Source: Halalkalirubrum salinum
Lineage (GTDB): Archaea > Halobacteriota > Halobacteria > Halobacteriales > Haloferacaceae
Direction of reading: 5' to 3'
Assembly: GCF_005543295.1 (NCBI RefSeq)
Contig: NZ_SRSG01000010.1
Coordinates: 130,362-194,361 of the forward strand
DNA: 64,000 bases
The number at the start of each line of letters is the position of its first letter. The stretch's first letter is position 1. This document shows, piece after piece, positions 24,294 through 28,454 of this stretch. Made by a program: the position numbers and the translations under genes. The notes beneath the pieces are model-generated. The model was not told the origin of the DNA and did no database searches. It worked only from the letters and a program-made list of their open reading frames with translations.

Positions 24294-24402
24294 AGCGGGC
24301 GATCGGACCGAACAAATATATGTCTCAGGGAACCGGCGGTTCGAGGTTCAACAACTGAGATTGAGACGGTGATCGAGAAGAAACGGTGCCGTCTTACCCG
24401 TC

Positions 24403-25011
24403 TTACGCGATCCGCGCGAACGCGAGGTTGCCGCTGATGTTTTTGATGTAGATCTCGACCTCGTCGCCTTTCTGTGCGCCGGGGACGAAGATCGTGTACT
24501 TGCCCTTCTCGGCGACGCCGTCACCCTTGCGGCCGGTGCCGGTGATCTTGACCTCGTAGGTCTTGCCCTCTTCGAGGTCCGGCACGTCGCGTTGGGCCTG
24601 TTTACGCCGGCGCTTTGCAACCGGACGGAATGCCCCACACGCCTCACAGCGGAGCATCTGGGTACGGTTCTCCATGACGAGGCGGGTATCCGGCAAGCCA
24701 CATTCCGAGCAGGTGACGTACTCCTCGATGTAGGCGTCGATCGCCGCGGAGAAATCCGACGGCGTGAACGTCCCGTTGTACCGCCCCCGGCCGTTTTCAA
24801 ACTGTCCGGCGGTCCCGAGCTCACGCTGGATCGTACTGTGGAGGTGCTCTGGATCCCGCGAGAGCGCGTCCGCGATCGCCGAGAGGTTCGTCAGCCGCGT
24901 AAACGCGCCGTCTTTCTGTGTTTCCGGGTCCGGAACCGACAGCCGCTCGTCAGAGCCGCTGAAGTCCGGGAGCTCATCCATCGCTCGATCGAGCCCTGCT
25001 TCGTAGTCCAT
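24403..25011 (-). CDS. eif2b: Translation initiation factor aIF2 subunit beta with TRAM domain
   Basis: Protein of 202 residues. The aIF2-beta/eIF5 core is followed by a C4 zinc ribbon (CSECG...CEACG, about 117-140) and a C-terminal TRAM domain (about 155-202, GRKGDGVAEKGKYTIFVPG). The TRAM tail is a haloarchaeal addition thought to bind RNA. It is the beta subunit of the factor that brings initiator tRNA to the ribosome. The start MDYEAGLDRAM (25011) fits the family, and the upstream in-frame 20 residues do not. Two stop codons, each within a GTAAGAC sequence, close the gene. Confidence 0.92.
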   Translation of the reverse strand: MDYEAGLDRAMDELPDFSGSDERLSVPDPETQKDGAFTRLTNLSAIADALSRDPEHLHSTIQRELGTAGQFENGRGRYNGTFTPSDFSAAIDAYIEEYVTCSECGLPDTRLVMENRTQMLRCEACGAFRPVAKRRRKQAQRDVPDLEEGKTYEVKITGTGRKGDGVAEKGKYTIFVPGAQKGDEVEIYIKNISGNLAFARIA

Positions 25012-26268: not shown

Positions 26269-26895
26269 ATGAGTAAGGTCACGTTCCGAGCCGACGACGA
26301 CCTCATCGATCGGCTCGACGCGCTCGAGGTCTCGAAAAGCGAGGCCATGCGCCGAGCGCTGCGCTCATACCTCGACGACGCAAAACGTGACGCGTCTACC
26401 AGACAGTCAGACGATCCGCCGTCGAACGTAAACGATCGGCCGTTTGGATCGTTCGACGCGATGCTGACCGATCGCATCGACGAACGGATCGATCGCCGTC
26501 TGTCTGCACTACTCGCTGACCACAATGGCCGAAAATCTGCTGAGACGCCGCCGGTAACAGTAAACGTGACTATCGATGAGGCAGGCGTGCGGACTGGCCG
26601 ATCGACCGAACACACGAGCGAGACCGACACAGCAGACACTGACGAACTGAATACGAATCTCGCCGACAGCGCGGCCGAACCGCGTAAGACACCACCAGCG
26701 CGGGCGGACAAATCGACCGAGTGTGGACAGTGCGGCGAGACGATCGCACCTGAGCACGTATTCTGTCCAAACTGCGGGCAGAAGGCCGTACACCGGCTGT
26801 TCTGTGAGTGTGGCGACGAGATCCGATCGGATTGGGCGTTCTGTCCAAGCTGCGGCCGACGGACACCAGCAGCAGATGTGTTACACAATGGCTGA
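26269..26895 (+). CDS. cdrL: CdrL-like ribbon-helix-helix regulator with double zinc ribbon
   Basis: Protein of 208 residues. An N-terminal ribbon-helix-helix DNA-binding domain (VTFRADDDLIDRLDALEVSKSEAMRRAL, about 4-45, given as a region) is joined by a long acidic linker to two zinc ribbons (CGQCG...CPNCG and CECG...CPSCG, about 150-200). This is the CdrL architecture of haloarchaea, encoded next to cdrS-ftsZ2 and reported to regulate that operon. A TATA-like TTAATG lies about 29 nt before the ATG, suggesting a leaderless mRNA. Direct control of the next promoter is supported by gene order and by the palindromes described below. Confidence 0.85.
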   Translation: MSKVTFRADDDLIDRLDALEVSKSEAMRRALRSYLDDAKRDASTRQSDDPPSNVNDRPFGSFDAMLTDRIDERIDRRLSALLADHNGRKSAETPPVTVNVTIDEAGVRTGRSTEHTSETDTADTDELNTNLADSAAEPRKTPPARADKSTECGQCGETIAPEHVFCPNCGQKAVHRLFCECGDEIRSDWAFCPSCGRRTPAADVLHNG

Positions 26896-26901
26896 GAGTG
26901 C

Positions 26902-26930
26902 GTAAGACAAACAGCGAGATTTTGTCTTAC
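26902..26930. promoter_or_regulatory. 10-bp inverted repeat downstream of cdrL
   Basis: GTAAGACAAA (26902-26911) and TTTGTCTTAC (26921-26930) are perfect inverted arms with a 9-nt spacer, starting 7 nt after the cdrL stop. The sequence could be a transcription-ending hairpin, but the same GTAAGAC/GTCTTAC half-sites recur at the cdrS promoter, which favours an operator. Confidence 0.6.
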
Positions 26931-26941
26931 ATCGCCGGTAG

Positions 26942-26992
26942 TTTTTTATCCTCTGCGGGTTAGGTTACCAATGCGTAAGACAGTCGTCTTAC
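26942..26992 (+). promoter_or_regulatory. cdrS-ftsZ2 promoter with palindromic operator
   Basis: A TATA-like TTTTTTATC (26942-26950) is followed at the expected transcription start by GTAAGAC-AGTC-GTCTTAC (26975-26992), a palindrome with perfect 7-bp arms. A further TGTCTTAC lies at 27063-27070 near the cdrS start. A regulator bound here would cover the initiation site. CdrL and CdrS are the obvious candidates. Confidence 0.6.
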
Positions 26993-27087
26993 ACCGGGGC
27001 CGATCGTGGATTCGATTGTGCGATCCGGCTCAGATTGTGAGACGATCACCGGCGATGTCGCCTGTCTTACCGGGGGAATACACAACT

Positions 27088-27270
27088 ATGGAGCGTGTGA
27101 CACTACGGATTCCGAAACAGCAGATCGAGGAGGTTGAACAGATGGTCGAAACCGGCCAGTTCCCGAACCGGAGCGAAGCGATCCGGTCGGCTGTCCGAGA
27201 GATGCTAAGCGAACAGAGCGAGACCGAGACGCGCCAACGGCCGACAGAGCGCAGCTGGGCGAAGGTGTAA
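27088..27270 (+). CDS. cdrS: CdrS ribbon-helix-helix cell-division regulator
   Basis: Short ribbon-helix-helix protein of 60 residues ([17 protein letters not shown]..., then SRSEAIRS-like [14 protein letters not shown]). CdrS is a known regulator of ftsZ2 and other division genes in haloarchaea. Its stop is 2 nt before the ftsZ2 ATG, so the two form one operon. The frame remains open upstream to an ATG at 26971, which lies exactly where a leaderless transcript would begin. The 60-residue form matches family size and is preferred, but the start is uncertain. Confidence 0.88.
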
Positions 27271-27272
27271 CT

Positions 27273-28454
27273 ATGCAGGATATTGTTCAAGAAGCCCTTG
27301 AGAACGCCGAAGCCGAAAAGCGCGAGATGGACATCGACAGCGAGGGTGATGAGTTCGGTGATCCACGGATCGTCATCGTCGGTGCTGGCGGTGCCGGAAA
27401 TAACACGATCAACAGGCTGTACAACATCGGTGTCGACGGCGCAGACACAGTGGCCATCAACACTGACAAACAACACCTCGAGATGATCGAGGCTGACACG
27501 AAGATTCTCGTCGGCAAGTCGCTGACGAATGGGCTCGGTGCCGGTGGCGATCCAAGTATGGGCGAGCGCGCCACCGAGATGGCACAGGGAACGATCAAAG
27601 AGGTGCTCGGCAAGGCAGACCTTGTCTTTGTCACTGCCGGAATGGGTGGTGGCACCGGCACAGGTGCAGCACCAGTCGTCTCGAAGATCGCCAAAGAACA
27701 GGGCGCAATCGTCGTTGGAATGGTTTCGACGCCGTTCAACGTCGAGCGAGCTCGGACCGTCAAAGCCGAAGAGGGGCTCGAACAGCTTCGCAACGCGGCA
27801 GATTCGATCATCGTGCTCGACAACAACCGCCTGCTCGATTACGTCCCGAACCTGCCGATCGGCAAGGCCTTCTCGGTGATGGACCAAATCATCGCCGAGA
27901 CAGTCAAAGGGATCTCCGAGACGATCACCCAACCGTCGCTCATCAATCTGGACTACGCAGATATGTCCACGATCATGAACCAGGGCGGCGTCGCCGTGAT
28001 GCTCGTCGGAGAAACCCAGGATAAAAACAAGACCCAAGAAGTGGTCAACGACGCGATGAACCACCCGCTGTTGGACGTCGACTATCGTGGTGCGTCTGGC
28101 GGACTCGTCCACATCACTGGCGGCCCCGACCTCACGCTCAAAGAGGCAGAGGGCATCGCCCACAACATCACCGAACGGCTCGAAGCGAGCGCGAACGTGA
28201 TCTGGGGTGCCCGAATCCAAGACGAGTACAAAGGCAAGGTGCGCGTCATGGCGATCATGACCGGCGTGCAGAGCGCACAGGTCCTCGGCCCCACGACCCA
28301 AAAGCAGGCCGACAAATCCCGTGCGAGCATCGACGGCATGTCCGAGCGCAACGCTGACGAGGCACGATCGGCGACTGCAAGTGACAATTCCTGGCAATCC
28401 GACGGCGGTCGTGACCAACTCGAAAAGAACAACGGCCTCGACGTAATCCGGTAG
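27273..28454 (+). CDS. ftsZ2: Cell division protein FtsZ2
   Basis: Tubulin/FtsZ GTPase of 393 residues. The N-terminal GTP-binding [17 protein letters not shown], the tubulin signature [14 protein letters not shown] (about 126-139) and the T7-loop region [13 protein letters not shown] (about 227-239) are intact. An acidic C-terminal tail with a terminal hydrophobic GLDVIR follows. Co-transcription with cdrS identifies it as FtsZ2, the paralogue that drives mid-cell constriction in haloarchaea, rather than FtsZ1 or CetZ. It is convergent with ncsA. Confidence 0.95.

Follow-up and report, generated by a model that had tools for sequence, protein, structure and literature searches.

Which protein controls the division operon cdrS-ftsZ2 in haloarchaea, and through which element? 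In the 64,000-nucleotide stretch of Halalkalirubrum salinum DNA analysed here (the window), cdrL, cdrS and ftsZ2 lie on one strand in that order, and the heptamer GTAAGAC, or its complement GTCTTAC, recurs between the first two genes. ChIP-seq of CdrL in Hbt. salinarum yielded a single reproducible site, upstream of cdrS-ftsZ2 only (Darnell 2020, PMC7439475), and ChIP-seq of CdrS in H. volcanii yielded 18 sites with a symmetric motif (Liao 2021, PMC8406309). Archaeal division control has so far been described by ChIP regions, phenotypes and a CdrS motif from one species, and the cis-site of CdrL is undescribed. A search of the main texts of open-access journal papers returned no description of CdrL cis-sites, of the specificity split or of the leader RNA reported below; for the letters GTAAGAC in literature text, the matches listed were all unrelated.

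The cdrL-cdrS intergenic region

The features of the locus are the following (window coordinates).

26269..26895, plus strand: cdrL, encoding a ribbon-helix-helix (RHH) domain, a CdrL middle region and a double zinc ribbon; candidate reader of the half-sites
26902..26908, minus strand: GTAAGAC, outer half-site of the site A pair, with 10-bp arms together with 26921-26930 (direct reading)
26924..26930, plus strand: GTCTTAC, site A, directly 5' of the TATA box
26942..26949, plus strand: TTTTTTAT, T-rich, probable TATA box between the site A pair and the palindrome
26975..26992, no strand: GTAAGAC-AGTC-GTCTTAC, core palindrome (site B), on the presumed transcription start; 5' strands of leader-RNA helices P1 and P2
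26993..27036, plus strand: leader stem-loop M (P2 hairpin), variable in sequence and conserved in structure
27037..27043, no strand: GTGAGAC, degenerate left partner of the start-proximal site (D-left), from direct reading and relatives
27064..27070, plus strand: GTCTTAC, start-proximal half-site (D-right), beside CGGGGGAAT; 3' strand of RNA helix P1
27088..27270, plus strand: cdrS, a 60-aa RHH protein with an R3-T5-R7 recognition strand
27273..28454, plus strand: ftsZ2, second gene of the operon, used for the FtsZ2 tree

Direct reading places the half-sites between cdrL and cdrS where the first-pass annotation had put them, including the pair at 26902-26930 with its 10-bp arms, GTAAGACAAA/TTTGTCTTAC. 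The site at 27063, which had been taken as single, is actually the right half of a pair, with GTGAGAC (27037-27043) as its left partner. It is part of TGTCTTAC (27063-27070), located 17 nt 5' of the cdrS ATG (27088), and this octamer occurs 7 times in the 64-kb window against 0.73 expected from shuffling. The exact 18-bp palindrome is found once in the organism's own 3.4-Mb genome. With up to two mismatches it matches 4 places, against 4 for the control pattern, so that only the exact site stands out. In the Pfam search, the CdrL of the window scored 1.6e-5 for RHH_1, 1e-7 for DZR and 7.2e-6 for CdrL_M, the last at 26.6 bits, slightly below the 27-bit cut-off. Elsewhere in the window, two tandem GTCTTAC copies with a 9-bp step (24391-24406) lie at the 3' end of a minus-strand gene that ends at 24403; they are non-palindromic.

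Conservation of the palindrome and its satellites

The pattern GTAAGAC-N3..6-GTCTTAC was searched for in 392 genomes of the Halobacteriales, the order to which the window belongs, with the reversed pattern as control. It is present in 365 of the 392, representing 87 of 95 genera, and the control in 7. Among the genomes of good quality the figure is 334 of 345. The pattern is single-copy in every positive genome but G370, which has two, and in all 59 genomes that could be checked (both coordinates listed) the palindrome lies at most 260 bp from cdrS or cdrL. Most of the negatives of family f14 are accounted for by spacing, since this family keeps both heptamers at N2 or N3.

A closer comparison was based on 109 cdrS loci: 79 named loci, the window and 29 loci from hand-picked genomes, palindrome-negative ones included. 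Eighty named loci had been fetched, of which L080 was dropped (its contig begins 6 bases before cdrS); L144, a weak non-cdrS match, was not used. The set holds near-duplicates, as L005 is from the same genus as the window and L037 and L042 are from the same genome. In every one of the 109 promoters (170 bp 5' of the ATG) GTAAGAC is the commonest 7-mer, and the 409 copies in total compare with a shuffle mean of 3.2; the half-sites are thus conserved among the relatives. Ninety-nine loci have the core palindrome without mismatch, 83 of them with the one-turn spacing of 11 bp from start to start. Site A reads exactly GTCTTAC in 62/109 loci and GTCATAC in 15/109, while the start-proximal GTCTTAC is exact in 102/109. 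D-left is an exact GTAAGAC in 59 of the 94 loci that have both palindrome and start-proximal site.

Two peculiar cases can be mentioned. In Haloquadratum walsbyi (L084) and in L120, an f1 relative whose promoter is nearly identical, an oppositely oriented GTATGAC stands in for the right half of the palindrome, so that the two heptamers form a direct repeat at a 10-bp step. L037 and L042 (CP132292.1, 61534-67707 and 2891770-2897202) are near-identical cdrS promoters near both ends of the chromosome record of Haloferacaceae archaeon XH8, and represent either a duplication or an assembly overlap.

The sites also have a fixed place in the promoter with respect to the TATA box and the ATG. Among the 96 loci where a TTTAW box was found, 82 have it starting exactly 32 nt 5' of the palindrome (3 further loci had no match to the pattern). 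The nearest upstream half-site has the GTCTTAC orientation in 60 loci, and 50 of these have site A 52 bp 5' of the palindrome. For H. volcanii, the legend to Fig. 2A of Liao 2021 (PMC8406309) indicates that TATA, +1 and 5' UTR of cdrS are drawn. The box position and the legend lend only indirect support to the earlier placement of the palindrome on the expected transcription start. If transcription begins 3' of the TATA box, site A is outside the cdrS transcript. We read the GTAAGAC palindrome as a candidate for a dedicated DNA operator in the cdrS-ftsZ2 promoter and, taken as comparative genomics, the case for such a putative operator is strong.

Two letterings, proposed for two regulators

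The recognition strand is K-[IV]-T-F-R in all 101 CdrL proteins extracted and M-x-R-[VI]-T-[LI]-R in CdrS, the main difference being R3 in CdrS versus K3 in CdrL. RHH strands read bases via these alternate residues. The R3/K3 exchange is a candidate specificity switch. AlphaFold models (mean pLDDT 77.7 for CdrS and 56.2 for CdrL) are too weak for arguing DNA contacts.

A second lettering of the half-site, GTCAGAC, occurs at the promoters of ftsZ1, dacZ and psmB in five Haloferax genomes (psmB in four of the five), with ftsZ1 having the full GTCAGAC-N4-GTCTGAC or a near form (sequences listed). All three genes are among the listed CdrS targets (Liao 2021, PMC8406309). The perfect GTCAGAC-N4-GTCTGAC palindrome is present in 34 of 117 genomes, against none for the reversed-pattern control; the genes near it include ftsZ1 (L246, L268, L269), one for an archaellum FlaD/E-type protein and, as named by eye, a RadA-like and a ParA-like gene. 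Often 35 nt separate a GTCAGAC-type site from the start codon. The organism's own genome has a one-mismatch site of this type before ftsZ1 (L236). A scan of that genome with up to two mismatches gave 17 matches for GTCAGAC versus 9 for the control, so that single weak matches are not trusted.

Only 5 of the 109 haloarchaeal cdrS promoters contain GTCAGAC, and that of the window has GTAAGAC instead, which indicates that the two letterings are held separate. Two half-site letterings that differ at position 3 are kept apart within the same genomes. CdrS probably reads GTCAGAC, its motif being derived here from the target promoters.

GTCAGAC-type sites also precede the gene of a conserved protein of 70-80 aa with the motif PLTAREI (G000:C1:38327-38344, or L002; L247, L252, L261, L270, L271). 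L002, in the organism's own genome, is a hybrid site; the spacing to the gene is 35 nt in L002, L247 and L252 and smaller in L261, L270 and L271. One of these proteins was compared with Pfam and had no match. The PLTAREI protein is likely to be a CdrS target.

Genomes without CdrL and the origin of the element

Three genomes that are 99% complete (G003, G012, G039) have no CdrL match among all their scored candidates, nor one at the locus, and their palindrome is intact. Three others (G104, G227, G390) likewise keep the palindrome with no cdrL at the locus; genome-wide absence is less sure here, as the wider scan mostly scored 8 candidates per genome. Families f2, f13 and f15 lack CdrL and have a degenerate palindrome, but the genomes concerned are 58-78% complete. 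Over the locus set, leaving out L057 (whose contig starts 779 bp 5' of cdrS), the exact palindrome is found in 96 of 102 loci with CdrL versus 2 of 6 without it (L132, L135-L138, L140). Its persistence in the absence of CdrL suggests that the element is not maintained by CdrL alone. The loss of CdrL had been considered as a proof of a site for CdrL only, and was rejected as such because the palindrome is retained. CdrS is the obvious candidate for a second reader, with the H. volcanii ChIP data pointing against it. In G104, the gene 5' of the intact cdrS operator (L155) is aldo/keto-reductase-like, like the upstream neighbour of cdrL in the window.

Outside the haloarchaea, 20 hand-picked cdrS loci from 11 families were examined. 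None of the 20 has a CdrL-like gene directly 5' of cdrS, and GTCAGAC is the top 7-mer in 19 of the promoters. Half-sites with at most one mismatch are spaced by 11, 22, 33, 44 and 55 bp in 24, 26, 20, 13 and 18 pairs, respectively, and no other spacing in these loci reaches 4 pairs. Some arrays include long inverted repeats directly 5' of the start codon (L173, with arms of about 18 bp). This 11-bp grid suggests an ancestral CdrS autoregulation that would later have been taken over.

In the FtsZ2 tree the haloarchaea form one clade, of which the deepest branch (f9, f11) already has both CdrL and GTAAGAC, while the outgroups, f18 included, have GTCAGAC and no adjacent CdrL. The lineages without CdrL are scattered inside the haloarchaea. 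Therefore, CdrL and GTAAGAC appear to have arisen together on the haloarchaeal stem, and CdrL to have been lost later, several times.

A structured leader RNA spelled by the same heptamers

The heptamers of sites B and D also have a part in the predicted fold of the leader RNA, which the first-pass annotation had missed. An RNA reading was taken up after the leader fold was first seen, and was evaluated in the 98 of 109 loci having a palindrome with at most one mismatch and a start-proximal site, thinned to 69 non-redundant loci. In the predicted RNA each half of the palindrome pairs with a half of site D, not with its palindromic partner: over the 98 loci the mean probability is 0.81 for B-left/D-right and 0.75 for B-right/D-left. 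The whole leader has a mean fold z of -5.7 (98 loci). For stem-loop M the mean z is -2.13 in the 98 loci versus -0.29 and +0.53 in two control stretches and, after thinning, -2.06 in 69 loci versus -0.27 in 345 control stretches. Its sense strand is more stable than its antisense strand (-2.06 vs -1.52, Wilcoxon p=1.3e-4), with a twofold share of G-U pairs (119/1035 vs 57/963). The shorter hairpin 5' of D-right gives a weaker signal (-1.30 vs -1.06, p=0.05). Genus- and family-level alignments contain, in each of six sets, 2 to 9 pairs that are kept via double changes.

Further evidence for the long-range helix comes from the bases flanking the heptamers, namely the one after the first palindrome heptamer and the one before the start-proximal GTCTTAC. 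They match in 63 of 69 loci against 45.8 expected, and their mutual information of 0.41 exceeds the maximum of 500 permutations (0.10), although this covariation rests on few independent events, perhaps about five. The other nine site pairs in the 69 loci, including the DNA-palindrome partners B-left and B-right, remain within the permutation range. At the next base inward, GA/TC replaces GG/CC in Halorubrum, Halobaculum and a Salinarchaeum MAG. Covariation between B-left and D-right is expected from RNA pairing, unlike from a DNA half-site preference.

RNAalifold, applied to a MAFFT alignment of 76 sequences, proposed only a local palindrome hairpin, with zero compensatory pairs. This purely local hairpin was not adopted, and per-sequence folding, strand comparison and genus-level alignments were preferred. 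The RNAalifold result is in our view no disproof, since sequence alignment fails to bring the inner hairpins into register. A covariance-model search of 26850-27150 against Rfam gave 0 matches at E<=1. In the outgroup cdrS leaders the two strands fold equally well (-2.95 and -2.94), which amounts to plain DNA symmetry. By computation, the haloarchaeal cdrS leader is a conserved structured RNA with strand-specific folding and long-range covariation.

The heptamer letters themselves behave differently from the stems. The substitute heptamer GTCATAC/GTATGAC is found at site A (15 loci), D-left (5) and B-right (4, flipped in two); its use at A, 5' of the TATA box, as well as at B and D, together with the flipped orientation in two loci, favours DNA recognition. 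Eight of the 15 single-mismatch variants of D-left break the RNA pair, and in the 109 loci no compensating paired changes were found within the heptamer letters.

Which reading fits best?

Together, these elements probably make up a composite control region for cdrS-ftsZ2, consisting of an RHH operator and a structured leader RNA. The identity of the reader is supported by the published ChIP, from one species; which protein would occupy which site we infer.

The simplest alternative, that the sites serve CdrL alone and regulate just cdrS-ftsZ2, seems rather unlikely to us. One palindrome per genome fits the single reproducible CdrL ChIP-seq site, CdrL and GTAAGAC arise on the same branch, and the palindrome is degenerate in the CdrL-less f2, f13 and f15; set against this are the intact palindromes of G003, G012 and G039 and, at locus level, of G104, G227 and G390, as well as the two exact palindromes among the six CdrL-less loci. 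The retention of the palindrome after CdrL loss is instead in line with autoregulation by CdrS, the universal RHH protein, on its own promoter with CdrL as an accessory, as are the 11-bp GTCAGAC arrays of outgroup promoters without adjacent cdrL and the close likeness of the two recognition strands, which differ chiefly at R3 versus K3. Nevertheless, we hold this reading to be unlikely, because none of the 18 CdrS sites in Table 1 of Liao 2021 (PMC8406309) is located 5' of cdrS and GTCAGAC is so rare in haloarchaeal cdrS promoters. The proposal of the first-pass annotation, a specific control site for CdrL and CdrS, is thus borne out in its conservation, its single copy beside two RHH genes and the CdrL ChIP region (PMC7439475), while the part concerning CdrS finds no support in that table, from the one CdrS ChIP-seq study found, or in the GTCAGAC of the CdrS targets, and CdrL falls short as sole reader given the palindromes kept without it.

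Conservation of the heptamers solely as stems of the 5' leader would explain the leader structure, its strand asymmetry and the long-range covariation, and it would agree with a comparison of RNA-seq and Ribo-seq in Hbt. salinarum that hints at post-transcriptional control of cdrS-ftsZ2 (PMC8303175). It is made very unlikely by heptamer letters that lack compensating drift, by the same heptamer and the same variant 5' of the TATA box, by the D-left variants that disrupt the pair and by the strand equality of the outgroup leaders. Equally improbable is a third RHH or NikR-like protein as reader. CdrS does resemble NikR in sequence (E. coli NikR, E 0.026), and the NikR operator GTATGA-N16-TCATAC (PMC7055735) shares with the present element an RHH reader and a half-site GTATGA(C) close to the GTATGAC variants. 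The NikR spacing, however, is N16 and its genes are nickel genes, whereas the element of the window has an N4 core and division genes, occurs once per genome adjoining cdrS and cdrL, and lies in a promoter bound by CdrL in ChIP.

A probable composite control region and its comparison with known systems

In the composite region that we favour, RHH dimers would occupy several GTAAGAC half-sites: a pair at the transcription start, separated by one helical turn, and others immediately 5' of the TATA box and of the start codon. Binding is expected to block initiation and presumably to damp cdrS-ftsZ2 transcription; given the high transcription of cdrS in H. volcanii (Liao 2021, PMC8406309), however, repression is not obvious. 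CdrL would be the main reader where it is present, and CdrS or another RHH protein where it is absent, with CdrS normally preferring GTCAGAC at its own targets, for example ftsZ1. The ancestral CdrS array, one GTCAGAC per 11 bp, was probably re-lettered upon the gain of CdrL on the haloarchaeal stem. In the mRNA, base-pairing of the heptamers across about 100 nt would give a closed, structured 5' leader immediately 5' of the ribosome-binding stretch, and the leader may in this way contribute a further level of control, on translation.

It could even be imagined that GTAAGAC does double duty, as CdrL/CdrS operator half-site and as closing strand of the leader stems. Transcription and, after it, translation could in that case be governed by one set of regulators, or by the division state that they report. 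The re-lettering from GTCAGAC would then have occurred as CdrL took over the CdrS feedback, with R3 versus K3 as the switch. This extended scheme is a tentative one, which we consider possible and no further.

With the CdrL binding region of Hbt. salinarum (PMC7439475) the element shares the locus, the promoter and the single site per genome. That paper gives a ChIP region, and the word "motif" does not occur in its main text; half-site, palindrome, satellites, TATA geometry and leader RNA come from the present analysis. The CdrS sites of H. volcanii (PMC8406309) have in common with it a symmetric motif, an RHH protein and a partner gene, but their targets are ftsZ1, dacZ, psmB and others, and the target promoters examined carry GTCAGAC rather than GTAAGAC. 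Autogenously regulated structured mRNA leaders share the conserved 5' UTR fold beside the ribosome-binding stretch. Unlike them, the cdrS leader is spelled in its stems by operator half-sites, is without an Rfam match and has no known ligand.

Implications

We regard the element as genuinely involved in the control of a known network; its cis-sites, the proposed specificity split and the leader RNA are new with respect to the open-access literature searched. Exact candidate sites are now available for mutation and gel shift. Furthermore, the two sister regulators offer a testable one-base split, GTAAGAC vs GTCAGAC, which can be set beside K3 vs R3, and the proposed change of regulator is dated to the haloarchaeal stem. 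Finally, the structured leader provides a possible explanation for the disagreement between mRNA level and ribosome occupancy of cdrS-ftsZ2 in Hbt. salinarum, which it could account for.
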